From Bacteroidota bacterium (lineage in GTDB: Bacteria > Bacteroidota > Bacteroidia > Flavobacteriales > Weeksellaceae): DNA of 64,000 nt. Numbering within the stretch: position 1 is the first letter of the stretch; every line of letters starts with the position of its first letter. The DNA lies in contig JAFDZI010000021.1 of assembly GCA_018266955.1 (NCBI GenBank), positions 1 through 64,000 of the forward strand. The letters are read 5' to 3'. Positions 24,487 to 48,768 of the stretch are shown here, piece by piece. Under the pieces are notes generated by a model. That model worked only from the letters and a program-made list of their open reading frames with translations, ran no database searches and was not told the DNA's origin. A program made the translations under genes and the position numbers.

Positions 24487-24643
24487 AATCGCCACTTACA
24501 AGTTTTTGCATTTAATTAATAATCATCGACTCCAATTTAGAAATGAAAAAATGAAGATAAACACCGATGAAAATTGGCAATTGACTTCGTCGAACCACTT
24601 CGTAAGTTTTCCATAGGAACATTAAAAAACAATTAAAAACTGA
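24487..24643 (+). repeat. Dispersed pre-gene module, copy 1
   Basis: The first of four related segments in this window, each ending at a start codon. It shares TCGCCACT, AATAATCATCGACTCC, a TAAACACC-like tract and CGAACCACTTCG with copy 2 and is close to it over the whole length. It ends at the ATG of the 140-residue membrane protein (24644). Inside it CATCG and CGATG (24534-24538, 24564-24568) and CCAATTT/AAATTGG could pair. Confidence 0.8.
24581..24610 (+). promoter_or_regulatory. Putative promoter block in module copy 1
   Basis: TTG (24581-24583), 19 nt, then TAAGTTTT (24603-24610). The spacer contains the conserved dyad CGAA-CCAC-TTCG (24591-24602). The arrangement matches a Bacteroidota promoter with a degenerate -7 box, placed 33 nt before the ATG. 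Confidence 0.5.
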
Positions 24644-25066
24644 ATGAAAGTTAAATATTCAAAAAATCGCGTAATTTTTAATGCATTTATGGGTAGCCTT
24701 TGGGTTGTGCTAAAGACCAACCATTGGCTTTTTGGCGATCCTATGCGCTGGTCAGATTTTGCTTTGCTTGCCGTTGGATTTATGTTTATAACCATAGCAT
24801 TGAAGGAGTGGTTTAGCTTTTATTTCCAATACAACGAAGATTCCGTTACCTTATTTTCTTTCTGGGGACGACAAGACAAAACAATTTTCTTTAAAGACCT
24901 CATAGAAGTAAAATATTTCGGTGGCGACTACCAGTTTCGAACTTTAGACCAAAGAATTGTAATTTCCAAATCCCAAATGGACAAAAAAAGAAGACCCGAG
25001 TTTGAAGATTTTTTCCAAAAAGTAAAAGAACAATTCGACAACAGAGGAAGCCTGCAAGCTTTCTAG
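24644..25066 (+). CDS. Small membrane protein with PH-like C-terminal domain, function unknown
   Basis: 140 residues. Two hydrophobic segments lie near residues 8-25 and 38-57. The rest has alternating strands (SVTLFSFWGRQDKTIFFKDL, EVKYFGGDYQFRTLDQRI) ending in an amphipathic helix (EFEDFFQKVKEQF). This resembles bacterial PH-like membrane proteins, but no family is certain. It stands alone, with the dispersed module as its upstream region and a palindromic repeat just after it. Confidence 0.7.
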   Translation: MKVKYSKNRVIFNAFMGSLWVVLKTNHWLFGDPMRWSDFALLAVGFMFITIALKEWFSFYFQYNEDSVTLFSFWGRQDKTIFFKDLIEVKYFGGDYQFRTLDQRIVISKSQMDKKRRPEFEDFFQKVKEQFDNRGSLQAF

Positions 25067-25069
25067 TTT

Positions 25070-25180
25070 GGTTTTTGGGCGTGCCCCTCGCCATGCTTTT
25101 CCCGAGGCTAGGGTCGTGCTTTCCGTTGCAATCTTTTTGTTCGTTCCTCACAAAAAGGATTTCCACTACAATCACTCACG
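25070..25180. repeat. Flavobacterial palindromic repeat, copy A
   Basis: GC-richer than its surroundings, with CGTGCTTTCCGTTGCAATC, then CTTTTTGT facing ACAAAAAG as a hairpin, then GGATTTCCACTACAATC. The two TTTCC...CAATC blocks are direct repeats flanking the hairpin. A related copy lies at 50355-50450. Such elements are widespread between genes in Flavobacteriia. Confidence 0.65.
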
Positions 25181-25405
25181 CAAGACAATATGCAAATATT
25201 GAACTGACAGAAAAAAAAGACAGAACATTTGCCACCGAACAAATGGCACATTTTTTTTTCCCGACACACAAGCCAACGCTCCAAAAACCAAAAGAGCCAT
25301 TTTTCCCCACCGCTCGAATAGAGAAATTTTCAAACATTTTTTATCACGAAAAACGATATATTGAAAAATATAAATTAAATTTGTGACTTAACATCTTTAA
25401 AAGCA
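25181..25405 (+). promoter_or_regulatory. Upstream region of the restriction-modification island
   Basis: This spacer has an imperfect hairpin, TTTGCC (25229-25234) facing GGCA (25245-25248), followed by nine T residues, and a -7 box TAAATTTG at 25376-25383, 23 nt before the regulator gene. No TTG lies at the standard distance. Low GC and homopolymer runs distinguish it from the flanks. Confidence 0.4.
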
Positions 25406-25615
25406 ATGAACAGAATTAAAGAAGTACTTGAAGAAAAAGGAATTAAACAAACTTGGTTGGCTGAACAATTGGGAAAAAGCTATAATATGGTCAATGGTTA
25501 TGTTCAAAATCGACAGCAACCAAGACTTGAAGTACTGTACGAGATAGCGAATATTCTCCAAATTGACATTAAAGAACTTTTAAAAACGAACGAAGAAGTT
25601 TACAAATGCAAGTAG
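25406..25615 (+). CDS. XRE-family transcriptional regulator of the R-M island
   Basis: 69 residues, almost entirely one HTH_3/XRE domain: IKQTWLAEQLGKSYNMVNGY (about 14-33), then QPRLEVLYEIANILQIDIKE. Size and position fit a controller protein that times restriction-modification expression. Its stop codon (25613-25615) overlaps the next gene by 10 nt, so the two are translationally coupled. Whether it represses or activates cannot be told. Confidence 0.85.
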   Translation: MNRIKEVLEEKGIKQTWLAEQLGKSYNMVNGYVQNRQQPRLEVLYEIANILQIDIKELLKTNEEVYKCK

Positions 25616-26595
25616 TAATCGACATATTAGAAAATGAAATCATCGAGAAATATCCTGATATTCTCGAAATACTACTGCGTGACCAAACTACTCAAAAAAA
25701 CATCTTTTGGGCAACAGACAACTACGAACATTTAGGAGATTCATACAAATTCAATTCTGAAATTTTATTTAGTTCGATTACCGGAGAAAACGGCAATATC
25801 ATAATGCCGAGAGTGTACAAAGACAAAGTTTTACAACTTTCTCGTTCCAAAGAAATGGCAGAAGTTTTCACACCATCTTGGATTTGCAATGCTCAAAACA
25901 ATGCAGTGGACAATTCTTGGTTTGGTAGAGAAAACGTATTCAACAAAGAAATCTTATTAGAAAACGGGACTAAATCTTGGGAAACTACCAAAGAAAAAAT
26001 CTTTTTCCCAAAAGATAAAACTTGGCAAGATTATATTCTTGACACTCGATTAGAAATCACTTGTGGAGAAGCTCCCTATTTGGTTAGCAGATACGACACC
26101 ACAACAGGAGAATCTATTAACATCGAAAACCGAATCGGACTTTTAGACCGAAAACTTAGAGTAATAAATGAAAATGTAAATTCTGAAAAAGAATGGATAA
26201 ATGCCGTTGAAGTTGCCTACAAAAATATTTACGGTTTTGAATGGCAAGGCGACAGTTTGCTTTTGGCTCGTGAGGCGTTATTGATTACTTTTATTGAAAA
26301 CTTTACATACAAGTTTGAAACTGAACCCACTCTTGAAACCATCAAAAATATTGCACATATTATTTCTTGGAATATTTGGCAAATGGACGGATTAAAAGGA
26401 GTTATCCCTAATAGTTGCAAAGATGAAATCATAGAAACGGCAACGATTTTCGAAACCCAAACAGAAATCAGAAAATGTAAAGGTTGCGAAAAACAAGATT
26501 TGAAAAAGATAAAGTTCCACAACGGAATTTATTGCAATATTATGGACTGGGGAATTGAACAGCCTATACGGTTTATTGACCTTTTAGAAAAATAA
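25606..26595 (+). CDS. Methyltransferase-like subunit of the R-M island, no NPPY motif
   Basis: 329 residues. AEVFTPSWICNAQNN (about 84-98) resembles the motif X region of N6-adenine methyltransferases. LEITCGEAPYLVSRYD (about 148-163) looks like a degenerate S-adenosylmethionine motif I, and IYGFEWQGDSLLLAREALL like motifs II-III. No (N/D/S)PP(Y/F/W) catalytic tetrapeptide exists anywhere in the protein. A CxxC pair (RKCKGCEK) lies near residue 287. It probably acts as a partner of the large protein 3 nt downstream, for recognition, allostery or a diverged transferase role. The function is inferred from context. Confidence 0.65.
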   Translation: MQVVIDILENEIIEKYPDILEILLRDQTTQKNIFWATDNYEHLGDSYKFNSEILFSSITGENGNIIMPRVYKDKVLQLSRSKEMAEVFTPSWICNAQNNAVDNSWFGRENVFNKEILLENGTKSWETTKEKIFFPKDKTWQDYILDTRLEITCGEAPYLVSRYDTTTGESINIENRIGLLDRKLRVINENVNSEKEWINAVEVAYKNIYGFEWQGDSLLLAREALLITFIENFTYKFETEPTLETIKNIAHIISWNIWQMDGLKGVIPNSCKDEIIETATIFETQTEIRKCKGCEKQDLKKIKFHNGIYCNIMDWGIEQPIRFIDLLEK

Positions 26596-26598
26596 GGA

Positions 26599-29500
26599 AT
26601 GAGTGAATTGAACAATATAAATGTAGATATACTTGATAATTTAATCATTGGTAGAGTTGATCCACATATCTATGCTTTCACTACCGAAACCATTCCGAAT
26701 TATCTGAAAGTTGGCGATACCTATCGTCCGCTTGAAACGAGATTGAATGAATGGAGGAAACATTTTCCAAACCTTGAAAAGAAGTTTGAAAATATTGCAA
26801 AAGTTGATGACGAAACTTTTTTCAGAGATTTTGCTGTTCACTATTTCTTAGAAAACGATTTAAAAAGAAAGCGTTTAGGTCGTGATGTTTTTAAAAACAT
26901 TCCCTACTACTCCAACGAGTTTTTTGAAAATGCAACTGAACAAGATTTGCAAGAAGCGATAAAAGATATTGAAAACGGACACAAAAACAATGACCCGAAA
27001 TATCAATATTATCGTTTTGATGAAAGTCATATTCCCATTGTACACACCTATCAAAGAACGGAGAACTATAATCCAAGACCTAACCAACAAGAAACGATAA
27101 AAAAATTTCGTGAAGCAATCGACAAAGGAAGAACAAATTTGTTGATGTATGCTGTAATGCGTTTTGGTAAATCGTTTACTTCAATGTGTTGTGCCGTTGA
27201 AATGGGTGCAAAATCGGTGGTGGTGGTTTCCGCAAAAGCCGATGTAAAGGAAGAATGGAAAAAAACGGTTGAAAGCCATATCAAATTTGACGGATATAGT
27301 TTTTTGGATAGCAATTCGCTGTTGCAAAGTGATACGGTAATTACCGAAAAACGACAAGCAGATGAAAAATTTGTGCTTTTTCTGACCTTACAAGATTTGC
27401 AAGGCGATGAAATCAAAACAAAACACAAAGAACTTTTTAAAAATCAGATTGATTTACTTTTAATTGACGAAACGCATTTTGGAGCAAGAGCCGAAGAATA
27501 CGGCAAAGTATTAAAAACAGAAAAGCTCACCAAAAGCCAATTAAGAAATGAGTTAAAACTCAACGATAATACATTAGATGATTTAGAAATAACCAATAAG
27601 GTTTTTAATACAAAAATTCGCATTCATCTTTCGGGAACACCTTACCGAATTTTAATGAACAGCGAGTTTACCGATGATGACATTATTGCGTTTTATCAGT
27701 TTACAAATATTGCAGAAGACCAAGAAAAATGGGATGTAGAAAACCTTAATAAAGACGAAATAAAAGAATGGGATAATCCGTATTACGGCTTTCCGCAAAT
27801 GGTGCGTTTTGCTTTTAACCCTAACGAATCTTCCCGAAAAAAAATGGAAGAACTGAAAAAGAATGGCATTACCTACGCTTTTTCAGAACTTTTCAAACCG
27901 CAATCTATCACGAAAGACAACCAAAATGGACTTCACAAAAAGTTCATTCACGAAACCGAAATTTTAGATTTACTGAAAGTCATTGACGGTTCGGAAATGG
28001 ACGAAAATTTATTAAGTTTCTTGGATTACGACAAAATCAAAGAGGGCAAAATGTGCCGACATATCGTTTGCGTTTTGCCTTACCGGGCTTCTTGTGATGC
28101 TTTGGAAGAACTCATCAAAAATCACGACTTCAAACATCTTTCGGGTTACGAAATCATCAATATTTCGGGTGTTGAGAACGAAAGAAATTTTAAAGATACA
28201 CAAGCTGTACAAGCTAAAATCAAAAATTGCGAAAGTGAGAATATAAAAACTATCACTTTAACGGTAAACAGAATGCTGACAGGTAGCACCGTTCCAGACT
28301 GGGACACAATGCTTTACTTGAAAGACACATCTTCTCCGCAAGAATACGACCAAGCGATTTTCCGTTTGCAAAATCAATACATCAGAGTTAATAAAGAATC
28401 CAATGGTGATGTGGTTAAATTCAATATGAAACCACAAACCTTGTTGGTCGATTTTAACCCGAACAGAATGTTCCAAATGCAGGAACAAAAAGCACAGATT
28501 TACAACGTAAACACAGACAAAAACGGAAATGGTTTACTGGCAGAAAGAATCAAACGAGAACTTGAAATCTCCCCTATCATTGTGTTGAACAACAACAAAA
28601 TGGTAGAAATTCAACCAACCGACATTTTGGACGCTGTTCGTCAATATTCTAATAGTAGAAGTGTAATAGATGAAGCTACAACCATTTCCATAGACATGAA
28701 TCTGTTGGATATTGAAGCCATAAAAGCTGAAATTGAAAGACAAAATGCAATTAATTCTCGAAACGGAATAGAATTAAAACCGGGAAAAGGAAAAGGCGAT
28801 GATATTAACCCTCCTACACCACCAGGAACTAATGGAACAGAAGAAGATGAACCACCTAAGCCTATACCACCAAATACAATCAAAGAGCCTGAACCAGATT
28901 ACAAAGGTCAGTTTGCCATGTATTACGCTCGGATTTTGTTCTTTGCATTCTTGACAGATTCAAGAGTAAAATCTTTGCAAGAAATCATCAATGAAATTGA
29001 AAACAATGCTGATAATCAAAGAATTTCAAACAACTTAAACCTTGACAAGCAAATACTTTCGTTGTTTCAAAAACACATCAATCCGTTTATATTAAGCGAA
29101 TTAGATTATAAAATCCAGAACATCAATTCATTGGCAAACGACACCTCTATTTCTCCGATAGAAAGAGCGAGTAATGCAATGAAAAAATTCAGTCGTTTGT
29201 CGGATTCGGAAGTGGTAACACCCGAAACGGTTACGGATATGATGATAAACGCATTACCCGAAAACGCAATAAATAAAAACACAAAGATATTGGATATAGC
29301 TTCTAAACAAGGTGAATTTGTGTATGCTGTTTACAAGAAATTCGGGAAAGAAATTGCCAATAATTTTTACGCTATTCCAACCTCAAAAATTGCGTACGAA
29401 TTTACCCTAAAAGTTTATAAATTATTAGAATTAGATATGGAACTCATCGAAAAAGATTACACCGCTTATGATTTAATCAAAGACAAATCTTTGGTTGAAA

Positions 29501-30561
29501 ACGGAATGCTCCAAGTCAATGGAAAGAAACTAAAGTTTGATGTGATTGTGGGAAACCCGCCATATCAGGACAGAAGAGAAGGAACAAGCGATAATCCTAT
29601 TTATCATCTGTTTATGAATGTTTCTTATGGTTTGGCTGGAAAAGTTATTTTAATTACACCTGGAAGATTTTTGTTTAATGCAGGAAAAACTCCAAATCAA
29701 TGGAATGAAAAAATGTTAAATGACAAACATTTAAAAGTCAAGTCATATTTTAATAAAAGTAGTGATGCGTTTCCAGAAGTGCAATTGCCAGGAGGAATGG
29801 TAATTACATTAAGAGATAACAAACAAAATTTTGATAAAATTGGTGTCTTTTCAAAATTTAAAGAACTTAATACCATTTTACAAAAAGTAACTAATGCTAA
29901 AGATTTTGAACCAATTGATAGTAAAGTGTTTACACAAAATAAATTTGAATTAGAAACTTTATATAAAGATTACCCTGATTATAAAAACATTATTGGTAGT
30001 AATGGCAGAGAGAAACGATTAACAACTTCGATATTTGACCAATTATCAATTTTTACCGAAAATCCTAAAAACGAAAACGATGTATGTGTAATTGGCTTAA
30101 TTAAAAACAAAAGAACTTATCGTTTTATTCCTGCCAATTATATTGAACAACACATAAATACGAAAAAATTTAAAATTATTCTTCCTAAAAGTAATGGTTC
30201 AGGTGCATTGGGAGAAGTTGTTCCTACTCCTTTAATTGGAGAGCCTTTAATTGGAGAAATTGGAACTGGTTATACACAATCATTTATAAGTATTGGCGCT
30301 TTCGATTCAAATAAAGAAGCTGAAGCTTGCTTAAAATACATAAAAACAAAATTCTCAAGAGCAATGCTCGGCACATTAAAAGTTACACAAGACAATAATA
30401 AAGATGTTTGGAAGTATGTTCCAATGCAAGATTTTACTTCCAATTCAGTTATAAACTGGTCAAAATCAATTGCTGAAATTGACCAACAATTATATGAAAA
30501 ATACAAATTAACCAACGATGAAATCGAATTTATTGAAAAAACAATAAAACCAATGGACTAA
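26599..30561 (+). CDS. Single-chain restriction-modification enzyme: GIY-YIG nuclease, SF2 helicase, N6-adenine methyltransferase, specificity region
   Basis: 1320 residues. A GIY-YIG-like nuclease is at the N-terminus (IYAF 24-27, YLKVGDT 35-41, Arg48, Glu107). An SF2 helicase/translocase follows (RPNQQETIKKF, Walker A-like MRFGKS 187-192, DETH 290-293, SGTPYR 345-350). A Pro-rich linker lies near 735-765. Then comes an Eco57I-like methyltransferase (motif I region ILDIASKQGEF near 895, motif IV VGNPPYQD near 985) and a C-terminal part, likely target recognition. The order is that of translocating type ISP/IIG enzymes, but with GIY-YIG in place of the usual Mrr-type nuclease. It would cut unmethylated foreign DNA and methylate self DNA. 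The last 330 residues are visibly more AT-rich in codon use. Confidence 0.82.
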   Translation: MSELNNINVDILDNLIIGRVDPHIYAFTTETIPNYLKVGDTYRPLETRLNEWRKHFPNLEKKFENIAKVDDETFFRDFAVHYFLENDLKRKRLGRDVFKNIPYYSNEFFENATEQDLQEAIKDIENGHKNNDPKYQYYRFDESHIPIVHTYQRTENYNPRPNQQETIKKFREAIDKGRTNLLMYAVMRFGKSFTSMCCAVEMGAKSVVVVSAKADVKEEWKKTVESHIKFDGYSFLDSNSLLQSDTVITEKRQADEKFVLFLTLQDLQGDEIKTKHKELFKNQIDLLLIDETHFGARAEEYGKVLKTEKLTKSQLRNELKLNDNTLDDLEITNKVFNTKIRIHLSGTPYRILMNSEFTDDDIIAFYQFTNIAEDQEKWDVENLNKDEIKEWDNPYYGFPQMVRFAFNPNESSRKKMEELKKNGITYAFSELFKPQSITKDNQNGLHKKFIHETEILDLLKVIDGSEMDENLLSFLDYDKIKEGKMCRHIVCVLPYRASCDALEELIKNHDFKHLSGYEIINISGVENERNFKDTQAVQAKIKNCESENIKTITLTVNRMLTGSTVPDWDTMLYLKDTSSPQEYDQAIFRLQNQYIRVNKESNGDVVKFNMKPQTLLVDFNPNRMFQMQEQKAQIYNVNTDKNGNGLLAERIKRELEISPIIVLNNNKMVEIQPTDILDAVRQYSNSRSVIDEATTISIDMNLLDIEAIKAEIERQNAINSRNGIELKPGKGKGDDINPPTPPGTNGTEEDEPPKPIPPNTIKEPEPDYKGQFAMYYARILFFAFLTDSRVKSLQEIINEIENNADNQRISNNLNLDKQILSLFQKHINPFILSELDYKIQNINSLANDTSISPIERASNAMKKFSRLSDSEVVTPETVTDMMINALPENAINKNTKILDIASKQGEFVYAVYKKFGKEIANNFYAIPTSKIAYEFTLKVYKLLELDMELIEKDYTAYDLIKDKSLVENGMLQVNGKKLKFDVIVGNPPYQDRREGTSDNPIYHLFMNVSYGLAGKVILITPGRFLFNAGKTPNQWNEKMLNDKHLKVKSYFNKSSDAFPEVQLPGGMVITLRDNKQNFDKIGVFSKFKELNTILQKVTNAKDFEPIDSKVFTQNKFELETLYKDYPDYKNIIGSNGREKRLTTSIFDQLSIFTENPKNENDVCVIGLIKNKRTYRFIPANYIEQHINTKKFKIILPKSNGSGALGEVVPTPLIGEPLIGEIGTGYTQSFISIGAFDSNKEAEACLKYIKTKFSRAMLGTLKVTQDNNKDVWKYVPMQDFTSNSVINWSKSIAEIDQQLYEKYKLTNDEIEFIEKTIKPMD

Positions 30562-30869
30562 TGATGAAGGCAATTCGATATGAAAAAGATTCAGTTTTAA
30601 TCCAAGATAGTAAAATAAAGGCTTGGGTTGATATATGGATTGAAGATGAAGATGTGATTTGCGATTGGAATCAAAACATCTTCATTATGACAGACCCAAA
30701 AGATGTTGCTCTAAAAAAATGGCAGGATAATTTAGAGCATTTTGAGGACGCTACAAGTTTAGCTTTAGAAACATTAGAAAATGCTGGTATCATTTATCAA
30801 GACGAAAATGCAAAATGGCATCAATCAGAGAAATATCATACCACAATAGGTTCTATACCAATAAATTAA
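30561..30869 (+). CDS. Small protein of the R-M island, unknown
   Basis: 102 residues starting at the TAATG overlap with the large enzyme, so it is co-translated. The product is acidic and Trp-rich (AWVDIWIEDEDVICDWNQN) and has no family I recognise. A second, broken version of its first 25 codons lies just downstream (30923-31091), which shows this small gene is a recurring companion of the large gene's 3' end. It could be an inhibitor, chaperone or nuclease-modulating subunit; this is only inferred from position. Confidence 0.6.
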   Translation: MMKAIRYEKDSVLIQDSKIKAWVDIWIEDEDVICDWNQNIFIMTDPKDVALKKWQDNLEHFEDATSLALETLENAGIIYQDENAKWHQSEKYHTTIGSIPIN

Positions 30870-31091
30870 CTGACCAACGATGAAATTGAGTTTATTGAAA
30901 AAATGATCAAACCAATAGACTAATGATGAAGGCAATTCGATTTGAAAAAGATTCAGTTTTAATCCAAATCAGAAAAATCAATGCTTGGGTTGATATAAAT
31001 AGAAATCAAAGAAAATTTAATTGAACCTAAAGAATTACCTTTGCTTATCGAAAAAATCGAAAGTTTTAAAGAAAAAATAACAAAATACTAA
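30870..31091 (+). pseudogene. Degenerate second copy of the big-gene/small-gene junction
   Basis: From 30870 the sequence repeats the last 17 codons of the large enzyme in frame (TNDEIEFIEKMIKPID, then stop) and the TAATGATG overlap. It then repeats the start of the small gene (MMKAIRFEKDSVLIQ..INAWVDI). A one-base shift near 30992-31000 moves it into another frame, which continues as IEIKENLIEPKELPLLIEKI to a stop at 31089-31091. As it stands the frame ends early at 31021. The tail differs from the intact gene, so this is the remnant of an alternative allele, not a simple recent duplication. Confidence 0.8.
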
Positions 31092-31114
31092 AGAATAATC
31101 TCAGTTATATTATC

Positions 31115-32395: not shown

Positions 32396-32406
32396 ATGTA
32401 AAATAA

Positions 32407-32431
32407 AAACCGATGAGTAATTCATCGGTTT
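32407..32431. terminator. Bidirectional terminator between rarA and the secreted-protein gene
   Basis: AAACCGATGA (32407-32416) pairs with TCATCGGTTT (32422-32431). The stem is perfect and T-rich on both outer sides. Confidence 0.8.
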
Positions 32432-32458
32432 GGTTTTATGTAGTTGTAATTTAGGTGT

Positions 32459-32887
32459 TTATAATGCGGTGGAGATGCTTAGGACTTTTTTTCCTTCGTG
32501 CAGAATTACACTGGTTTGTCTTATAGCATTATGGATTACTTTCAGCTTGGTATTGGTTAGTAATCGTCCATCAAATAATACCGGATTGTCTGCTGCAAGT
32601 TCGTTTTGTTCATTTAAGCTAGCCAAAGTTATTTTATCATAAAAATTATCCTTCACTTGTACATTTATGATCGGCGATTGTGCATTTACCGTAAATGAAT
32701 TTAAAGTGGAAGGTAATTGATTATTATTGGTAATAATGGTTGTCGATTGTACATTTTTCTTGTTTTTATTGATGAAATTTTGACTTGCCAAAGCGCCATC
32801 TACAAAAACTAGTTTTTGATTTGCTGTGGTCTGACTTAGTGCCAACCCGGAAACAGCTAAAAATAAAGTGAAGAGAATCTTTTTCAT
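32459..32887 (-). CDS. Secreted protein of unknown function
   Basis: 142 residues from ATG at 32887; an in-frame ATG twelve codons upstream lies inside the repeat module and is not preceded by a better context. A clear signal peptide MKKILFTLFLAVSGLALSQ is followed by a beta-rich Asn/Gln-rich domain (LVFVDGALASQNFINKNKKN...). The phrase FVDGAL..NFINKN faintly recalls TonB-receptor plug segments, but it is too weak for a call. Its promoter region is module copy 2. Confidence 0.7.
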   Translation of the reverse strand: MKKILFTLFLAVSGLALSQTTANQKLVFVDGALASQNFINKNKKNVQSTTIITNNNQLPSTLNSFTVNAQSPIINVQVKDNFYDKITLASLNEQNELAADNPVLFDGRLLTNTKLKVIHNAIRQTSVILHEGKKVLSISTAL

Positions 32888-33051
32888 AAATAAATATTTT
32901 TTGTTTTTTATGGTCTTATGCAAACCTAACGAAGTGGTTCGATGAAGTCAATCGCCTTACTTCATTAGTGTTTACACCATTTTTTTATTTCTATATTGGA
33001 GTCGATGATTATTAATTATTTGTATAAACTTATTAGTGGCGACTTCATACC
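32888..33051 (-). repeat. Dispersed pre-gene module, copy 2
   Basis: The reverse-strand copy ends at the ATG of the secreted-protein gene. Read on the minus strand it holds TATGAAGTCGCCACT, AATAATCATCGACTCC, TAAACACTAATGAAG, ATTGACTTCATCGAACCAC and TTAGGTTTG in the same order and spacing as copy 1. It is the best preserved copy of the promoter-like block. Confidence 0.82.
32921..32951 (-). promoter_or_regulatory. Promoter block in module copy 2
   Basis: On the minus strand TTG (32951-32949) is followed after 20 nt by TAGGTTTG (32928-32921), a full consensus match. The spacer carries CGAACCACTTCG (32941-32930), a 4-bp dyad around CCAC. The box lies 33 nt before the start codon. Confidence 0.65.
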
Positions 33052-33094
33052 AATAGTTCTTTTGGTAAAATTTCATCAAATATAAATAAAATCC

Positions 33095-33102: not shown

Positions 33103-33186
33103 GGCAAAATTATTTCAGCAATGTCAACTGAAATTAATTGAGATCGGAAATTTAATTTTTAACAAAATATAATAATCAAGAATAGA

Positions 33187-40106: not shown

Positions 40107-40310
40107 ATCTCAAAGTTAATTATTTTTTAAAACAATTTTAAAATTTACTCGAATTATTTTAGATTATTTTGTGAAAAAAAATAACGATTTCTAGGATAAT
40201 ATAGGATATTATTAACTTTTAATATCTAATAAAATAATTAAAAAGCTTTTTTTAAGTAGGTAATAAAGTAATCGATATTTCGGGGTGATTCCTAGGTATT
40301 GTATGTGAAA

Positions 40311-40955: not shown

Positions 40956-40966
40956 AGAGAAGCGTT

Positions 40967-41359
40967 TTATCTACATCTAGGAGGGCAAAGTTCTGCAAAA
41001 TCCATGGCGTCAATCTCCGTTATGATTTCTTCCCTTTGATTTTCCTCGTTTACAGCATTCAGAAAAATAGTTTGATGATTCAAAAAGTCTGGATTTAATC
41101 TTGAATCAAAATTATTTTCAGGATATTTACCCATATTTATTCTAATTTTAACCTTATCTTTTCCTAATCTCTGACTTTCTCTTTGTACATAATTCAGATA
41201 TTGAAGTAGGATGTCCAAGTCATAAGTATAAGTTAAAGAGTCTGGATCGTCTATGCGTCTATGAGCATTGATGTATGCATAATTCGTTTGTCTATATTGC
41301 TCGGATAAAATTTCCTGTTGTTCTATCGTGATGCGGTAATCTTCAAATGTTTTCATCAT
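40967..41359 (-). CDS. Small protein with Cys-Pro-Pro-Arg-Cys tail, unknown
   Basis: 130 residues, charged and helical (IEQQEILSEQYRQTNYAYIN, LLQYLNYVQRESQRLGKDKV), with no signal peptide. It ends abruptly in AELCPPRCR, which puts two cysteines within the last five residues. No family was recognised. It is the first gene of a likely unit with the seven-helix membrane protein. The C-terminal CPPRC could bind metal or be a modification or processing site. Confidence 0.65.
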   Translation of the reverse strand: MMKTFEDYRITIEQQEILSEQYRQTNYAYINAHRRIDDPDSLTYTYDLDILLQYLNYVQRESQRLGKDKVKIRINMGKYPENNFDSRLNPDFLNHQTIFLNAVNEENQREEIITEIDAMDFAELCPPRCR

Positions 41360-41511
41360 TGTTTTGTGTTTTTTTGTTAAAATTAAGAAAAATAATAATC
41401 TATAGTTGTCTTTTAATAGATGATGTTCAAAATTTCAAAACCTTAGATATGCAAAAATATTTCTATTTTTGATATTTGATAAAGGAAAAACCCCCTAAAT
41501 TTATTTTATTC

Positions 41512-42168
41512 ATGTTATTAACCAACTTTCACTCCATAAAAAATCAATTACCCAATCATGTGCAATTGGTCGCTGTATCCAAAACTCACCCCGTAGAACG
41601 AATAAAATCTATTTATGATGCTGGACAAAGGGTTTTTGGTGAAAATAAAGTGCAAGAATTGATGGAAAAACAACCTCAATTGCCAAGTGATATCCAATGG
41701 CATTTGATCGGTCATTTGCAAACGAATAAAGTGAAATATATTGCAGGTTTTATCGATACTATACAGAGTGTAGATTCAGAGAAACTGTTAGAAGAAATCA
41801 ATAAACAAGCAGAGAAACACAACAGGAAAATTAAAGTGCTTCTCCAAGTAAAAATAGCTACAGAAGACACCAAATATGGGCTAGAGATTTCAGAAACCAA
41901 AGAGTTGTTTTTGAAATTTATACAAGGATGTTTTCCCAATATAGCAATCGTTGGATTGATGGGGATGGCTACTTTTACCAATGATCAACAACAGGTGAAA
42001 AACGAATTCATGTTCTTGAAAAGACTCTATGATCAGCTTTCGTTACAGTACCCTTTACAAACCCTTTCCATGGGAATGAGCGATGATTTTCCTTTGGCAA
42101 TAGAATGTGGTGCCAACTCGGTTCGTATTGGTTCCGCTATTTTTGGTGATAGAGATTATTCCAAATAG
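41512..42168 (+). CDS. Pyridoxal-phosphate homeostasis protein, YggS/PROSC family
   Basis: 218 residues from the ATG at 41512; a TTG at 41476 would add 12 unconserved residues. The PLP lysine is in LVAVSKTHP (near 23), followed by FGENKVQE, WHLIGHLQTNK and the C-terminal SMGMSDDFPLAIECGANSVRIG. It is a single-domain alanine-racemase-like barrel without racemase activity that buffers PLP. A -7 box TATTTTTG lies at 41464-41471. Confidence 0.93.
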   Translation: MLLTNFHSIKNQLPNHVQLVAVSKTHPVERIKSIYDAGQRVFGENKVQELMEKQPQLPSDIQWHLIGHLQTNKVKYIAGFIDTIQSVDSEKLLEEINKQAEKHNRKIKVLLQVKIATEDTKYGLEISETKELFLKFIQGCFPNIAIVGLMGMATFTNDQQQVKNEFMFLKRLYDQLSLQYPLQTLSMGMSDDFPLAIECGANSVRIGSAIFGDRDYSK

Positions 42169-42213
42169 ACTGAAAATGAGTTTAAAGTATATATTTTTTT
42201 CTAATTAAATTCA

Positions 42214-42221
42214 TAACTTTG
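42214..42221 (+). promoter_or_regulatory. -7 box of the sigma-54-type regulator gene
   Basis: TAACTTTG fits TAnnTTTG, only 6 nt before the ATG at 42227. This would give a leaderless or nearly leaderless mRNA. Confidence 0.45.
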
Positions 42222-42226
42222 CCGTT

Positions 42227-43411
42227 ATGCAAAAAATATTAATTGTAGAGGACGAAAAACCAATTTCTGACGCCCTTATTAGTGTGCTTTCCGATGAATT
42301 AAAGGAATATGAATTTGAAGTAGCCAACGATGGTGCTGATGGGCTGAAAAGAATTGAAAAAGAGGATTATGCCCTTGTAATTTCTGATATTAAAATGCCC
42401 AAAATGTCTGGTGATGAATTGTTGAAAAATGCAATTCAAATGAAACCGGATACTACATTCTTAATGATTTCTGGACATGCTGATATAGAATCGGCAGTTT
42501 CTTGTCTAAAAATAGGTGCCTTTGATTTTATTGAAAAACCAATTGATTTGAATCGTCTATTTCAAAGTGTAAAGAATGCTTTGGATAAAAATTTGCTTCA
42601 AAAAAACAATCAACAACTTCATAAAGAAAATTCAACCCTGAAAAAGAAAGTCAATAAAAAACACCAAATGATAGGTGAAAGTGTTGCACTTCAAAAAATT
42701 CAGGAAATGATAGAGAAGGTGGCGGTATCTGACGCCAGGGTGCTAATCACTGGTCCCAATGGAGCTGGTAAGGAATTGGTGGCTCATGCCATTCATGCAC
42801 AAAGCGAAAGATGCAAAGGACCAATGGTGGAAGTAAACTGTGCTGCAATACCTTCGGAACTGATAGAATCTGAATTGTTTGGCCATGTGAAAGGATCTTT
42901 TACCGGTGCCATAAAAGACAAACAAGGAAAATTTGAATTGGCCAATAATGGCACTATATTCTTAGATGAAATTGGAGATATGAGCCTGATTGCACAAGCC
43001 AAAGTACTCCGAGCGCTGCAAGAAAATAAGGTCTCACCAGTGGGAAGCGACAAGGAAATAAAAGTAGATGTGCGTGTTTTGGCTGCAACCAATAAAGACA
43101 TGAAAAAAGAAATAGCAGAAGGTAGGTTTAGAGAAGATCTATACCATCGTTTGTCAGTTATCGAAATTCATGTACCTGCTTTGGATGACAGAAAAGAAGA
43201 TATCCCTCTGTTGGTTCATCATTTTGCTAAAACCATTGCCGAAGAGCAAAAAACCATACAAAAGGAATTTGCATCGGAAGCCATAGAATCATTACAACAT
43301 TATTCTTGGACAGGAAATATCCGAGAATTGAGAAATGTAGTAGAAAGGCTTATTATTTTGGGTGGAAATCCAGTTACAGCTGAAGATGTGCACAGTTTTG
43401 TTAGAAAATAG
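42227..43411 (+). CDS. Response regulator with sigma-54 AAA+ domain and no DNA-binding domain
   Basis: 394 residues. The receiver domain (1-120) has VEDEKP and the phospho-acceptor Asp in VISDIKMPK (near 55). An AAA+ sigma-54 activator domain follows (about 150-380) with Walker A TGPNGAGKELVAHA, the loop ESELFGHVKGSFTGAI (GSFTGA in place of GAFTGA), and Walker B FLDEIGDM. The protein stops 15 residues after the AAA+ lid, where NtrC relatives carry a Fis-type helix-turn-helix. It may act from solution on sigma-54, as FlgR/CtcC-like proteins do. No kinase is adjacent. Confidence 0.88.
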   Translation: MQKILIVEDEKPISDALISVLSDELKEYEFEVANDGADGLKRIEKEDYALVISDIKMPKMSGDELLKNAIQMKPDTTFLMISGHADIESAVSCLKIGAFDFIEKPIDLNRLFQSVKNALDKNLLQKNNQQLHKENSTLKKKVNKKHQMIGESVALQKIQEMIEKVAVSDARVLITGPNGAGKELVAHAIHAQSERCKGPMVEVNCAAIPSELIESELFGHVKGSFTGAIKDKQGKFELANNGTIFLDEIGDMSLIAQAKVLRALQENKVSPVGSDKEIKVDVRVLAATNKDMKKEIAEGRFREDLYHRLSVIEIHVPALDDRKEDIPLLVHHFAKTIAEEQKTIQKEFASEAIESLQHYSWTGNIRELRNVVERLIILGGNPVTAEDVHSFVRK

Positions 43412-43463
43412 ATATTAATAGAATAGATAAATTAATATTTTTTTTACAATAAACATTCATCAT

Positions 43464-43490
43464 TTGCGGTAATTTTGCCGCAATTTTTTT
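43464..43490 (+). terminator. Terminator of the sigma-54-type regulator gene
   Basis: TTGCGG (43464-43469) pairs with CCGCAA (43478-43483) and is followed by seven T residues. The hairpin lies only 20 nt before the MATE gene start, so that gene's promoter must overlap it or be absent. Confidence 0.7.
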
Positions 43491-43509
43491 ATCTCTATAC
43501 AATTATACT

Positions 43510-44850
43510 ATGTTTTTAAATAAAAAATATACCAAAGCAAGTCTTACCCTAGCTTTACCCGTAATGCTTACCCAAGTTGGACAAGTATCTGTTAATCTTT
43601 TTGATAATATTATCGTAGGAAAACTATTAGGAGCAGATGCGTTAGCGTCGGTTTCCTTAGGAAATGCTATTTTTTTCTCGGTATTTGTTTTTGCATTGGG
43701 TTTTTCATTTGCCATTCCTCCTTTGGTATCCGAAGCTAAATCTCAGGGAGATCACGAAAAAATAAATTCTGTCTTCAGACATGGTTTTGTCATCAATTTA
43801 GGAATAGGAATTCTTTTGATGGGATTGTTGTTCGCTTTAATGCCAATGCTGTACCACATGGATCAGCCGGCAAAGATTATCCCAGATACCGTTAGTTTTT
43901 TGTCCATCATGATTGTGAGTATTGTCCCATTCATGGTGTTTCAGACTTATCGTGAAGTTTCCGAAGGCCTCTCTTATACCATTGGGGTAACCAAAGCCAC
44001 CATTTTGGCAAATATCATCAATGTCATTCTTAACTATGTCTTCATCAAAGGGATGTTTGGAATTAGTCCTATGGGGGTGCAAGGATCTGCTTTGGCAACT
44101 TTAATAGCTCGAGTATTTATGATGATTTTCTTGTATTTCGTTATGCTAAAAGAAGAAAAAACAAAAAGATACATCAAAGAATTTTCTCTTAAAATAGCCT
44201 TGTTTTCAAAAAAAATGTTTAGAACCATGCTGAAGTTAGGGTTACCCACGGCATTACAAATGTTGTTTGAAGTAACTGCTTTTGCGGCGGCTGCTTTTAT
44301 ATGTGGGTTAATTTCTGCTACCGATATTGCTGCTCACCAAATAGCCCTCAGTATGGCGAGTTTTACATTTAATTTATGTATTGGTTTCTCGGTTGCTTCT
44401 ACCGTAATGATTGGAGGTAAATTGGGGGAAAGAAAATTTGATGAAATTAAAAAAATTGGAATCAATAATTTTAAATTGGCATTTTTATTCATGCTTTGTA
44501 GTGGAACATTTTTTATTGTAGCACGCGATGTTTTGCCAACATTTTTTACCAAAAAAGAAGATGTGGAAGTTATTGCATTGGCTTCTAAGTTACTAATCAT
44601 TGCGGCTCTTTTTCAATTGTCCGATGGCATTCAGGTGACGGCATTAGGAAGTATGCGTGGCTTACAAGATGTGAAAATCCCTTCTATTATTACCTTTATT
44701 GCTTATTGGGTGATTACCATCCCGCTGGGGTATTATCTTTGTGTAGTAAGAGAAATGGGAGCATGGGGAATGTGGATAGCCTTAGGCTTAGGTTTAACTA
44801 TTTCGGCTGTATTGTTGGTGAGAAGGTTTTTGAATCATCGATTTGCTTAA
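43510..44850 (+). CDS. MATE-family efflux transporter
   Basis: 446 residues with twelve membrane helices in two six-helix halves. Typical MatE segments are LALPVMLTQVGQVSVNLFDN and LLGADALASVSLGNAIFF in the first half and LGLPTALQMLFEVTAFA and DIAAHQIALSMASFTFN in the second. It is a Na+- or H+-driven exporter of cationic drugs or metabolites (NorM-like). The substrate cannot be predicted. Confidence 0.93.
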   Translation: MFLNKKYTKASLTLALPVMLTQVGQVSVNLFDNIIVGKLLGADALASVSLGNAIFFSVFVFALGFSFAIPPLVSEAKSQGDHEKINSVFRHGFVINLGIGILLMGLLFALMPMLYHMDQPAKIIPDTVSFLSIMIVSIVPFMVFQTYREVSEGLSYTIGVTKATILANIINVILNYVFIKGMFGISPMGVQGSALATLIARVFMMIFLYFVMLKEEKTKRYIKEFSLKIALFSKKMFRTMLKLGLPTALQMLFEVTAFAAAAFICGLISATDIAAHQIALSMASFTFNLCIGFSVASTVMIGGKLGERKFDEIKKIGINNFKLAFLFMLCSGTFFIVARDVLPTFFTKKEDVEVIALASKLLIIAALFQLSDGIQVTALGSMRGLQDVKIPSIITFIAYWVITIPLGYYLCVVREMGAWGMWIALGLGLTISAVLLVRRFLNHRFA

Positions 44851-44885
44851 TGTATTTTTAGCAATAAAATTGTAATAAATTCTAA

Positions 44886-45032
44886 AATGAAATCACGATA
44901 CTACATTTCTTCACGCAATTAATAATTATCGATTCCAACTTAAAAAGAAGGGATAGAAATACAGGAGATAATAAACGATTGACTCCATCGAACCACTTCG
45001 TTAGGTTCATTAAATACAATAAAAATATACAA
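44886..45032 (+). repeat. Dispersed pre-gene module, copy 3
   Basis: It begins ATGAAATC and carries AATAATTATCGATTCC. It ends with TTG (44979-44981), 20 nt containing CGAACCACTTCG (44989-45000), then TAGGTTCA (45002-45009), 24 nt before the ATG at 45033. The central part is the most diverged of the four copies. Confidence 0.78.
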
Positions 45033-45656
45033 ATGAAATCAAAGATTAATATTGATCAATGGAATAGAAAAGAACATTTTCTTTTCTTTTCAAAATTTAC
45101 TGAACCATTTTTTGGTGTTACTGTAAAAATAGATGTTACGAATGCTTACTATAAGGCTAAAGAAAATGGAATTTCCTTTTTTCTACATTATTTGTATTGT
45201 GCATTAAAAGCTGCTAATCAGATTGAAAATTTCCGTTATAGAATTATCGACCAACAAGTGTATAATTTTGATAAGGTGCATGCTTCGCCTACCATCAATC
45301 GGCCCAACGGAACTTTTGGTTTTGCCTATATGAATTATGATGAGGACGAAAATGTTTTTTATAAAAATGCTTTGGCAGAAATAGAACAAGTACAACAAAC
45401 CAATCTGCTTTTACCTGCTAATTCTGGAGAAAATGTTATTCATTTTTCAGCTCTTCCATGGCTCGATTTTACGAGCATTTCTCATGCACGAAGCTTCGAT
45501 TTTCCGGATAGTTGCCCAAAAATTTCTTTTGGAAAAATGACAGACAATAATGGAGTAAAAGAAATGCCAGTTTCGGTACATGTTCACCACGCACTCATGG
45601 ATGGATACCATGTAGGTATGTTTATTGAAAATTTTCAAAATCTTTTGAACTTATAA
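45033..45656 (+). CDS. Chloramphenicol acetyltransferase-like protein
   Basis: 207 residues from ATG 45033; a longer frame from TTG 44979 starts inside the repeat module and is rejected. The CAT family opening (INIDQWNRKEHFLFFSKFTE), the substrate-side FRYRI and the catalytic HHxxxDG (VHVHHALMDGYHVG, about 184-197) are intact. The family acetylates chloramphenicol O3 with acetyl-CoA, but many chromosomal members have other or unknown acceptors. It stands alone under module copy 3. Confidence 0.85.
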   Translation: MKSKINIDQWNRKEHFLFFSKFTEPFFGVTVKIDVTNAYYKAKENGISFFLHYLYCALKAANQIENFRYRIIDQQVYNFDKVHASPTINRPNGTFGFAYMNYDEDENVFYKNALAEIEQVQQTNLLLPANSGENVIHFSALPWLDFTSISHARSFDFPDSCPKISFGKMTDNNGVKEMPVSVHVHHALMDGYHVGMFIENFQNLLNL

Positions 45657-45800
45657 AAATCTTTTTTTAATTCATAACCTTTGATTTGCTTCAAAGCTAA
45701 TGATAATAATAGGTACGGAAGTTTTGAGCCTAAAAAATGTCTATTAAGCCTAATCCTTAAAATGGAATTTTTAAAACTAATTTTTAACTATTTAAACCAA

Positions 45801-45830
45801 AAATCCGCCTTCAATAGAAGACGGATTTTA
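45801..45830. terminator. Bidirectional terminator between the CAT-like gene and pruA
   Basis: AAATCCGCCTTC (45801-45812) pairs with GAAGACGGATTT (45817-45828) with one mismatch and is flanked by A- and T-rich tracts. Confidence 0.75.
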
Positions 45831-45849
45831 TATTTATAAGGGTTATATT

Positions 45850-47475
45850 TTATCCTAAGAAAGGGTATTTATAGCTTCTTGGTGCTACAAATGTCTCCTT
45901 AACAGAACGAACAGAAACCCAACGCATTAAGTTCATTTTAGAACCGGCTTTGTCATTAGTTCCGGAAGCTCTGGAGCCACCGAAAGGCTGTTGACCTACC
46001 ACGGCACCGGTTGGCTTGTCGTTAATGTAAAAGTTTCCAGCAGCGTTTTCTAAAGCGTGGTATGCCTCCTCAATAGCGTAACGATCTTTAGAGAAAATAG
46101 ATCCGGTTAGAGAATATGGAGAGGTTTCATCTACCAATTTTAAAGTTTCTTCCCACTTACTGTCTTCATACACAAAAATGGTAAGTACAGGACCGAAAAT
46201 TTCTTCACAAATAGAAGAATACTGAGGGTTAGAAGTTAAAATAACGGTAGGAGCTACAAACCATCCCTTGGAATCGTCATAAGTTCCTCCGAAAACGATT
46301 TCTGCATCGCTGTCATTTTTAGCATTGTCGATGTATTTTTTGCATTTTTCGAAAGAACCTTTGTGGATAACTGCATTCACGAAATTGCTGGTGTCTTCTG
46401 GGCTACCTACTTTGATGGTGCTTAACTGGCTTCCCATTTCAGTTTTTACCGCTTCCCAAAGGGATTGTGGAATATAGGCTCTGGAAGCAGCAGAACATTT
46501 TTGTCCTTGGTATTCGAAAGCGCCTCTTACCAAAGCAGTTGCTACTTCAACAGAATCCGATGATGGGTGAACCATGACGAAGTCTTTACCTCCAGTTTCT
46601 CCAACAATTCTTGGGTAAGATTTGTATTTGTGGATGTTGTCGCCAATCATTTTCCACATGTTTTGGAAAACGGAAGTGGATCCGGTGAAATGCAATCCGG
46701 CGAAATCTTTATGAGACAATATTTTTTCGGCAGTTTCGGCTCCATCGGTAATCACCATGTTGATGACACCATCCGGAAGTCCGGCTTCTTTGAATATTTT
46801 CATCAGAACATGGGCAGAATATACTTGGGAAAGCGATGGTTTCCAAACCACTACATTGCCTAGCATCGCCATACATGTAGGTAAGTTAGCAGCAATTGCA
46901 GTGAAGTTGAAAGGAGTCACGGCAAAGCAGAATCCTTCAAGAGGTCTGTACTCGGAACGGTTCCACATACCTTCGCTGGAAACCGGTTGCTCAGAATACA
47001 TTTCGGTCATAAATTCTACATTGAATCTCAAGAAATCAATCAGTTCGCAAGCGGCATCAATTTCGGTTTGGTGTACATTTTTTCCTTGACCAATCATGGT
47101 GGCAGCATTCAGCTCATCTCTGTAAGGACCTGCGATAAGGTCGGCCATTTTCAGGAAGATGGAAGCTCTTTGCTCCCAACCTAGGGCACTCCATTTTTTC
47201 TTGGCTGCTAAAGCAGTTTCAATGGCCATATCTACATGGCTCATATTACCGTAATGATAGAAACCTAAATCGTGCTGATGGTCTTGTGGAGACTCTAATC
47301 GGTTATGGATAGAGGTTTTAATTTCTTTACCTCCGATAACCATAGGAACTTCGATTTTTTGGTTCCACATTTCTTTATACTTAGCAATCAATGATGCTAC
47401 TTCTGGGCTTCCCGGAGCATAAGTTCTTACTGGCTCATTGGTAGCAAAGGGTACTTGAGAAAGTGCTTTTGACAT
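45850..47475 (-). CDS. pruA: L-glutamate gamma-semialdehyde dehydrogenase
   Basis: 541 residues. It oxidises glutamate semialdehyde, which is in equilibrium with pyrroline-5-carboxylate, to glutamate: the second step of proline degradation. The NAD-site loop LHFTGSTSVFQ, catalytic Glu in VGETGGKDFV and catalytic Cys in EYQGQKCSAASRAY (about 322-335) are visible. It is monofunctional, without the PutA proline dehydrogenase domain. Length and the C-terminal PFGGSRASGTNDKAGSKMNL match the single-domain P5CDH group. Confidence 0.95.
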   Translation of the reverse strand: MSKALSQVPFATNEPVRTYAPGSPEVASLIAKYKEMWNQKIEVPMVIGGKEIKTSIHNRLESPQDHQHDLGFYHYGNMSHVDMAIETALAAKKKWSALGWEQRASIFLKMADLIAGPYRDELNAATMIGQGKNVHQTEIDAACELIDFLRFNVEFMTEMYSEQPVSSEGMWNRSEYRPLEGFCFAVTPFNFTAIAANLPTCMAMLGNVVVWKPSLSQVYSAHVLMKIFKEAGLPDGVINMVITDGAETAEKILSHKDFAGLHFTGSTSVFQNMWKMIGDNIHKYKSYPRIVGETGGKDFVMVHPSSDSVEVATALVRGAFEYQGQKCSAASRAYIPQSLWEAVKTEMGSQLSTIKVGSPEDTSNFVNAVIHKGSFEKCKKYIDNAKNDSDAEIVFGGTYDDSKGWFVAPTVILTSNPQYSSICEEIFGPVLTIFVYEDSKWEETLKLVDETSPYSLTGSIFSKDRYAIEEAYHALENAAGNFYINDKPTGAVVGQQPFGGSRASGTNDKAGSKMNLMRWVSVRSVKETFVAPRSYKYPFLG

Positions 47476-47672
47476 ATTATTTTTATTAAATTATAAAATT
47501 ATTCTCCATCTTTTTCAATGATAATCTTGATGAAGATTTTATTAAACATTCCTACAAAGTTAAGGGTTTTCATTTGCAATACAAAGCCAATCAGAAGTGA
47601 TTTTTCACAGACTGATGACAAACTATAGTTGGATTTAAATTATTTATCCAAAGTTTCTATTGAACGACTAAA

Positions 47673-48221
47673 TCATTGTTCATTAGTTGATTTTTCACCC
47701 GTACTGGATAATTTTATTTTCCTAACATTAGCTGGTTGTATTGTATAATTAGGTCTTCTGGCTACATATAATCTGGATTTGTCCAGCCTAGTGATACACA
47801 CCTTGTCGGATTGGTTGCCTCCCAAAACATGATAACATTCCTGATCTTCGCCTATGTAAAGTCCAACATGGCCTGCGGTTTTCCCGTTATTGGTTTTTCT
47901 TGTGAAAACCAAAACATCTCCTAACATAGGTTCTGGAGATAGTTTGCCAAAGTTTCCCCAATTAAGTGCCCAAAGTGGATCTTTTACCATTTGTTTGGCA
48001 CTTCGTTTGGCAACTACAGCTATAAATAACCCACACCAGGGAATTTTATCAGCCAAATAAACATTGGCAACACTACCACCAATTTCCTTGGCCCAAGCAA
48101 TGATGGTAGGATTGTTTTTGTGACCTAAAGTTTCGGAAATATCATATAAATCCAAGGCTTTTTTTATCATAATTGGTCCATTTTCTTTTAGCAACCAATT
48201 GTATTTTAAAGGTAATGACAT
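47673..48221 (-). CDS. CHAP/NlpC-like cysteine peptidase, TIGR02594 type
   Basis: 182 residues. An N-terminal helical part (IMIKKALDLYDISETLGHKN) is followed by the catalytic triad region: Cys in KIPWCGLFIAVVA (about 63), His in AGHVGLYIGED (about 117) and an Asn/Asp in GGNQSD. TIGR02594/NlpC-P60-like enzymes cleave peptidoglycan stem peptides and often occur as phage or toxin cargo. No signal peptide is visible, so it may be released by lysis or need a dedicated exporter. Confidence 0.8.
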   Translation of the reverse strand: MSLPLKYNWLLKENGPIMIKKALDLYDISETLGHKNNPTIIAWAKEIGGSVANVYLADKIPWCGLFIAVVAKRSAKQMVKDPLWALNWGNFGKLSPEPMLGDVLVFTRKTNNGKTAGHVGLYIGEDQECYHVLGGNQSDKVCITRLDKSRLYVARRPNYTIQPANVRKIKLSSTGEKSTNEQ

Positions 48222-48611
48222 GAGGAATGGTTTTTAGTAGTTAGTACTACAAATTTATTGGAAAAACGATAGATTATTTCAGGGTTTTATCCCTATTTTT
48301 TGTTGGCTATTTTACAAAATATCTTTTTTTAATTTTCCTAAAATTTATCTCTATGTACTTCTAAACTATGTTGTTAAGCGTTTTTAGGTTTTTTATTTTG
48401 CAATGCAGGTATATTGGATCGTTTAATTTTAATTAATGCTAATTTTTGCATCAAGTCTTCGTGAACAATTACCATCATTTTTTATTTTCATGATAAATCC
48501 CGTTCTTTGTTTTTCGTTTATGGATTGCTCTGGGTTTGGGTATTTTATTTAAATTCAAATTATTTCTAATCATGATTCTTCCTCCTATCAATTTCCATTC
48601 AAAACTGTCAG
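48222..48611. other. AT-rich intergenic region without recognised genes
   Basis: About 390 bp between the peptidase gene and module copy 4. It is rich in T-runs and contains no credible reading frame, strong hairpin or RNA gene that I can see. Promoters for the minus-strand peptidase gene may lie at its left edge. Confidence 0.4.
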
Positions 48612-48768
48612 TATGAAATCGGTTTTAACAAGTTTTTACAAACAATTGATCTTCATCGACTTCTATTAAAAAAAATGAAGAAAAATACCAATGAAGATGG
48701 CGATTGACTTGGTCGGACCACTTCGTTAGGTTGCCAAATGACTATTAAAAAACAATAAATATCTATAA
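48612..48768 (+). repeat. Dispersed pre-gene module, copy 4
   Basis: It shares ATGAAATCG, ACAAGTTTTTACAAA, TTCATCGACTTC and TACCAATGAAGATGG. It ends with TTG (48704-48706), 20 nt, then TAGGTTGC (48727-48734). The spacer has CGGACCACTTCG (one change from the others). An internal inverted repeat ATCTTCAT/ATGAAGAT could form a stem. The ATG of the ArsC-like gene is at 48769. Confidence 0.8.

Follow-up and report, generated by a model that had tools for sequence, protein, structure and literature searches.

What are the similar DNA segments that lie directly before the start codons of unrelated genes, always in the orientation of the gene, and how did they come to lie there? The question is raised by a window of 64,000 nucleotides, this being the whole stretch of DNA that was analysed, on contig JAFDZI010000021.1 (assembly GCA_018266955.1, positions 1 to 64,000) of a Bacteroidota bacterium of the family Weeksellaceae. 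A preliminary description of the window had recognised four such segments and interpreted them as a portable promoter or regulatory region, with a miniature inverted-repeat transposable element (MITE) as the alternative. Our analysis indicates that the module formed by these segments is likely to be a miniature non-autonomous mobile element, with a core of about 92 nt and forms of up to about 170 nt, that inserts at start codons of the form ATGAA and rebuilds the translation start. Each of the two alternatives was right in part. What is portable is probably the translation start, carried to start codons by insertions of a MITE-like kind; inverted-repeat ends were not seen.

The four segments are real, alignable copies of one module, and the family is larger than had been described, with a fifth copy in the window and many more in the genome to which it belongs (G000; 2.45 Mb in 59 contigs). 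A sequence-only model built from 38 copies, R1, gave at least 70 matches in G000 at a cut-off of E <= 0.05 (150 candidates scored). With one copy as BLAST query at least 51 matching pieces were obtained (E <= 10; best 40 of 89 candidates scored, some copies being represented by two pieces), the best non-self match having an E value of 4.1e-42. The copies are dispersed, up to 96% identical and about 90-170 nt long. Two genomes of the same genus, G001 and G002, were used for comparison, and G002 had 0 R1 matches as against the 70 of its congener.

The preliminary description had the copies end 24-36 nt before an ATG, and this has to be corrected, as the shared sequence reaches the start codon itself, terminal ATG included. 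Copy 1 (24483..24646, forward strand) leads to the ATG at 24644 of a 140-amino-acid membrane protein, copy 2 (32885..33048, reverse strand) to the ATG at 32887 of a 142-amino-acid secreted protein, copy 3 (44887..45035, forward) to the ATG at 45033 of a CAT-like acetyltransferase and copy 4 (48613..48771, forward) to the ATG at 48769 of an ArsC-family protein, all four being long forms with a 28-bp insert. Copy 5 (56901..56991, forward), a diverged short form without this insert, leads to the ATG at 56989 of a 189-amino-acid protein. Module-free orthologues occur for copy 2 (L258) and copy 4 (L257) in G002 and for copy 5 in G001 (L290); L numbers are locus labels throughout.

A typical copy starts ATGAAATCGCC and extends to the ATG with which the next gene begins. 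All 70 G000 matches were read, and in 53 of them the terminal ATG opens a forward open reading frame (ORF) of at least 80 codons, so that homologous copies lie upstream of different ORFs. The other 17 comprise five first members of tandems that are followed by a second module (L016, L022, L025, L038, L340), two matches at contig ends (L015, L341), one that lies mainly on the 28-bp block (L043) and nine without a long ORF or with a partial match (L016 second, L019, L021, L024, L028, L036 second, L337, L354, L355). The genes behind the 53 modules start with ATGAAA in 49 cases and ATGAAT in three, the remaining one (L349) having been cut off in the extraction; for comparison, ATGAAA starts were found in 118 of 360 ORFs of at least 150 codons in sequence from the same genus. 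No reverse-oriented copy at a gene start was found among the copies read. The tandem junctions seen were ATGAAA or GTGAAA, and at L360 three modules stand in a row.

The same placement was observed beyond this genome with R2, a model of the 93-nt core, which matched 103 of 197 genomes of the window's family (11 of 33 genera, E <= 1e-3) and, at the level of the order, 53 of 296 genomes (families f1 and f3, E <= 1e-4). Few candidates per genome were scored (21 for the family and 14 for the order, among the matches listed), so copy numbers are lower bounds. In three sets of loci that were read, 27 of 31, 20 of 26 and 22 of 25 hits were followed immediately by an ORF of 80 codons or more. Removal of G000 hits and of repeats (L385=L360, L386=L366, L431=L427) reduced these 82 hits to 75 distinct places, which are not all independent, as one inherited insertion may occur in several species (L371, L374, L378, L384; L367, L368, L373, L428). 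Outside G000, 65 of the 75 places lead straight into such an ORF; six of the ten misses lead into another module and four do not (L359, L398, L436, L449). Insertions at L367, L368 and L373 are common to different genera. The yardstick for these counts is the window itself, which has 138 ATGAAA words; 36 of these begin an ORF that reaches the 80-codon minimum, and in 12 cases the word supplies the first ATG of that ORF. The gene-forward placement reported for four copies out of four was therefore borne out on a larger scale, and the description of the module as a gene-forward, portable 5′ region is strongly supported.

To compare occupied and module-free sites, the distance from the -7 box (TAnnTTTG) to the module in G000 was set against the distance from the box to the ATG in the orthologues of G001 and G002. 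The box was present on both sides at six genes, and the distances agreed exactly at three of them. Both distances are 20 nt at 56901 (orthologue L290 of G001) and 28 nt at 32885 (L258 of G002; counted by hand), and at L031 the 6 nt measured in G000 recur in both relatives (L286, L287). From these matching distances, insertion of the module at start codons is most likely, and the direction of change would be insertion and not loss. The ArsC gene of G002 starts directly with its own ATG. Upstream of the module's first ATG, A was found at -10 and -11 with frequencies of 0.63 and 0.63 (n=35), compared with 0.50 and 0.56 in controls (n=287), as expected if that ATG had once been a start codon. The reading frame that lies upstream at L367, L368 and L373 has as its stop codon the TGA within the first ATGA of the module (read by eye), an overlap that is typical of a former start. 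The gltX gene, compared within one genus in which 22 of 23 genomes gave a match, carries a full module in 3 of 22 genomes (L405, L408, L419) and a compact module-free leader in two (L412, L417), while 17 leaders are intermediate in length, several resembling decayed modules by eye. All 22 have a TAATTTTG box, from which it is 15-16 nt to the start of a full module and 18 nt to the ATG of the two compact leaders. The module thus behaves as MITEs do, being a short, non-coding, dispersed sequence whose presence at orthologous sites varies among relatives.

The insertion is proposed to occur in one orientation at a start codon of the form ATGAA and would leave the upstream promoter and 5′ untranslated region in place. 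The old start codon would become the module's first ATG and begin a short ORF whose stop codon still lies within the module, and translation of the gene would start from the A-rich initiation region that the module carries (...AAAAAACAATAAATATCTACATATG). In all 35 copies that retain the old ATG, the ORF from it stops before the gene; this short ORF often opens with MKSP, and its length and frame vary among copies. The distance between the two ATGs falls in all three phases (21, 21 and 11 copies), and in-frame insertion or ribosome bypassing was rejected for this reason. The phylum Bacteroidota is largely without Shine-Dalgarno sites. Among 52 modules, 92-94% have A at leader positions -10 to -12, compared with 50-56% of 287 controls, a pattern that resembles the A-rich translation initiation region described for Flavobacterium johnsoniae (PMC6847099).

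Pfam matches place the module before genes for an amino-acid-kinase-family protein (PyrH-like), LpxB, LpxK, signal peptidase II, an acyl transferase (FabD-like), a FabG-like reductase, a MenD-like enzyme, PurK and apolipoprotein N-acyltransferase, the specific names being a reading of the Pfam family hits and the N-termini. Several of these genes are probably essential, judging from their predicted products. Since such genes must stay translated, the start of the module is very likely in use at its host genes, and the module's ATG and leader would be what the ribosomes use. The supply of its own start would also be the reason why copies at essential genes are tolerated.

The core form of about 92 nt consists of ATGAAATCGCCAT, a loop, ATGAAGATTGGCGATT, CATATGACCTTTAAAAAACAATAAATATCTAC and ATATG. 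A longer loop is present in 25 of 70 matches and the 28-bp insert in 35 of 70, and all four combinations occur; the longest forms, of up to about 170 nt, have the long loop and the separate 28-bp insert. The internal stem ATCGCC/GGCGAT covaries. Across 59 core copies (48 of 74 references, chosen by leaving out near-duplicates by hand, and 11 others), seven cells were changed on both sides compared with a shuffled mean of 1.4, and none of 500 shuffles reached as high, while slid controls gave at most four cells. Measures that count pairs or types were less decisive, 28 and 31 of the 500 shuffles reaching the observed value. In the alignment of G000 copies only, the cell count was weak (4 cells, 65/500 as high) and the other measures stood out (4, 11, 13 and 11 of 500). 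A search of 23000-50000 gave no Rfam family above cut-off at copies 1-4; the one sub-threshold overlap was Pseudomonadales-1, at 20.5 bits against a cut-off of 68.

The 28-bp insert, GACTTCGTCGAACCACTTCGTTAGGTTT, is to judge from its sequence contexts a second, independent unit that rides in the module. This is argued by the bases that precede it (TT in 147 of 153 distinct places and GATT in 117 of 153, among the loci examined), by a REP-like palindrome (REP, repetitive extragenic palindromic) found eight times without it and ten times with exactly 28 nt added, and by L052 (G033, around position 1500, reverse strand), where it breaks the reading frame of an IS3-like transposase and shifts the frame. 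It occurs in 79 of 197 family genomes (<=3 mismatches; a reversed control pattern gave 0 in every genome listed) and in several unrelated Weeksellaceae repeat families (L048, L064, L065, L151, L194 and others). In the window it lies at 24583..24610 in copy 1 (forward; GACTTCG...TTTT, after AATT), at 32922..32949 in copy 2 (reverse), at 44981..45008 in copy 3 (forward; diverged) and at 48706..48733 in copy 4 (forward), the last two pairs of coordinates being read off the alignment. Head-to-tail arrays of a 36-bp variant, GACTCCCGCTGGTCGTCGAACCACTTCGTTAGGTTT, occur at L148 and L210 (Chryseobacterium salipaludis), and a different repeated leader-like sequence with a Shine-Dalgarno-like AGGAGG (ATTAAAAAAATAAAAATGCAGGAGGCAAATC) occurs at L046, L062 and L073 (G005), also beside 28-bp inserts.

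The promoter of the preliminary description would have to reside in this block, which offers TTG-N20-TAGGTTT and could be read as a -33/-7 promoter that drives the downstream gene. The TAnnTTTG box, reported at -12 to -5 in F. psychrophilum (PMC9723704), is enriched upstream of genes here (50/157 within 60 nt vs 27/785 shuffled). A spacing of 20 between TTG and -7 is the commonest at the TAnnTTTG boxes of the genus (8/101), and TAGGTTT lies 40-43 nt from the gene's ATG, in the usual promoter zone, in the 17 copies with an exact TAGGTTT and an ORF of at least 80 codons. The TAGG, however, carries G where promoters rarely do: at the two free box positions G was found in 3 of 101 upstream boxes compared with 54 of 218 inside genes of the same genus, and it is nearly absent from the same two -7 box positions in the F. 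johnsoniae promoters reported (PMC6847099). The block is, moreover, missing from 35 of 70 copies and occurs as an independent 28-bp insert, and of its 81 intergenic occurrences elsewhere only 24 point towards a gene start (17 cases near locus ends and nine inside ORF calls being left out of this count). The -10/-9 G test and the orientation elsewhere thus set back the block as a promoter, and of the earlier proposal the portable gene-forward 5′ region stands while a portable promoter has become improbable. Of 53 copies, 14 have a native TAnnTTTG in the 60 nt before the module, a proportion close to that of ordinary genes (50/157).

Hairpin-dependent transposition of single strands is in keeping with the small size of the module, its single orientation, its short target word, the stem inside it and its growth in tandem. 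The most likely route, though a tentative one, is single-strand transposition of the IS200/IS605 (HUH) type, with ATG/ATGA as the target and the enzyme provided in trans. A PF01797 match was found in 11 of 12 genomes tested. The two RAYT-like Y1_Tnp genes of G000, at C13:65708-66052 (L226, just beyond the window) and C8:10886-11233 (L234), have TCCTACGGA-type palindromes alongside. Neither the 28-mer nor the module head was found in these two loci, on which ground RAYT was rejected as the mobiliser; the module nearest to the PF01797 genes of G000 lies at C13:68585, about 2.5 kb away. Transport on phages or plasmids was also set aside, as plasmid and phage collections gave no match to the one copy used as query in each and viral contigs gave no exact match to the 31-nt 3′ end of the module. 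The module was considered as the attC site of an integron cassette made up of module and gene; this reading was dropped because the modules precede genes that keep their place in relatives, namely the ArsC gene and the gene at 32885. In G002, on the other hand, the corresponding places lack both the CAT gene at 45033 and the region 24450-31114.

Several observations weigh against insertion at start codons by a mobile element that rebuilds the start. The positions -3 and -6, at which A favours initiation in F. johnsoniae (PMC6847099), rarely carry A in the module (0.13 and 0.08). Box distances disagree at three of the six genes: they are 27 in G000 and 25 in the orthologue at L030 (counted by hand), 21 in G000 with 23 in G001 and 71 in G002 at L013, and 12 in G000 with 55 and 57 in the relatives at L032, where the 5′ end of the module is poorly defined. 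Most of the 16 genes with an orthologue aligned near the start had no usable box on one or both sides and are non-informative, and at gltX the box distances of module and compact leader differ by 2-3 nt. Nine of the 70 matches precede no long ORF, four of them ending in ATGAAA, one in ATGAAT and four in neither. The two ends of the element, ATGAAATCGCC and CTACATATG, do not form an inverted repeat; the one that was seen (ATCGCC/GGCGAT) is internal. ATGAA stands at both ends of most copies and may be the element's own, so that a target duplication is indistinguishable from its own ATGAAA. Single-strand folding of five copies was mostly unremarkable (z -0.31, +1.08, -1.68, -0.93 and -3.17). The search for a mobilising gene was negative: other palindromes flank the two PF01797 genes of G000, and the module-free G002 has four PF01797 matches.

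Two further explanations share part of this evidence. The module may be a cis-regulatory RNA leader, a regulon element of stem and short ORF that answers to one signal and has spread because the control is useful, which is compatible with mobility. The covarying stem, the conserved leader, the short ORF with its frequent MKSP and the insertions common to different genera (L367, L368, L373) are consistent with such a role, but the host genes look unrelated (no formal enrichment test was made), the presence of the module differs between relatives, the length and frame of the short ORF differ among copies, and no Rfam family reached its cut-off at copies 1-4; we regard this explanation as rather unlikely. 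Still less probable is an ordinary MITE or REP-like repeat without a start-codon target, whose position would reflect only selection against other insertions. The module is indeed small, palindrome-bearing, present in many copies and prone to tandems, PF01797 was matched in 11 of 12 genomes tested, REP-like palindromes occur, and four of the nine orphan matches do not end at ATGAA. An untargeted repeat sits poorly, however, with the lack of a reverse copy at a gene start among those read, with tandems that join at ATGAAA or GTGAAA, and with the 28-bp block, an ordinary intergenic insert of the same genomes, which is varied in both position and orientation. Beyond the mobile element at start codons preferred here, we suggest with considerable doubt a wider picture, in which mobile "start-codon modules" in at least two families of one order are aimed by dedicated machinery and overwrite initiation, at essential genes too, bringing their hosts under shared translational control through stem, short ORF and leader.

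As a rule, start regions stay free of mobile elements, since these break genes. Non-autonomous elements derived from IS200/IS605 have a hairpin near one end and insert directionally beside a short target word, with no clear target duplication. The module is like them in its end-proximal hairpin and its directional insertion by a short word, and differs in that the start codon is the target and no cognate TnpA was identified. The Rickettsia palindromic elements and the mitochondrial byp elements are short repeats inside coding sequence that are translated through or bypassed. Like these, the module is short and inserts without destroying genes; in contrast to them, it stands before the coding sequence and its length keeps no frame. 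The closest published relatives, in the sources consulted, are mobile promoters and MITEs such as BrickBuilt of Porphyromonas gingivalis, which lies 49-591 nt from genes and has terminal inverted repeats and bidirectional promoter activity (PMC4596501). BrickBuilt and the putative mobile promoters are likewise dispersed, intergenic, non-autonomous elements, of Bacteroidota in the former case, thought to give neighbours new 5′ signals (PMC4596501). The module, by contrast, is placed at the start codon, always in the same orientation, and brings a translation start with it. REP and REPIN sequences with their RAYT are also small palindromic multi-copy repeats, probably moved in trans (PMC3733652, PMC2817692, PMC8266576). 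The module differs from them in its length (90-170 nt vs 20-40 for REP), in its start-codon position and in that no RAYT gene was found beside it in G000. With respect to the REP tag (GTAG or CGTC), CTAC, which is GTAG on the other strand, lies near the 3′ end of the module in most copies, away from the foot of the stem. No description of an element aimed at start codons was found in the open-licence literature, a weak negative as subscription journals were outside the scope.

Many flavobacteria thus carry the module at the start codons of unrelated genes, some of them probably essential, to which it appears to supply a new start for protein synthesis. If this is true, an insertion that rebuilds the start would explain its presence at pyrH-, lspA-, lpxB-, lpxK- and fabD-like genes and at gltX, and the module would offer a natural source for the re-wiring of translation in the phylum. 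For annotation, the 5′ untranslated regions, promoters and small ORFs of module-bearing genes are easily misread.

Among the genes behind the window copies, the CAT (PF00302; 45033..45656, forward) and ArsC (PF03960; 48769..49122, forward) assignments of the preliminary description were confirmed, and its membrane and secreted proteins behind copies 1 (24644..25066, forward) and 2 (32459..32887, reverse) gave no Pfam match at E <= 0.001. The gene behind copy 5 (56989..57558, forward) had no Pfam match either. Just 3′ of the gene behind copy 1 lies an Rfam Flavo-1 RNA (RF01705, 60.7 bits; 25108-25191, reverse strand), and similar pieces occur at several G001 and G002 sites. The stretch 24450-31114 (about 6.7 kb, from module copy 1) is missing at the syntenic place of G002, where the gap is about 1.1 kb, and the CAT-like gene at 45033 is located elsewhere in G002. 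A repeat at 45663-45754, just 3′ of the CAT-like gene, is 84% identical to places on contigs C6 and C181 of G001. The window further contains a direct repeat of 130 nt (30506-30635 and 30868-30997, 88% identical) and an inverted repeat at 55606-55717 with 52-nt arms, 73% complementary, and an 8-nt spacer.

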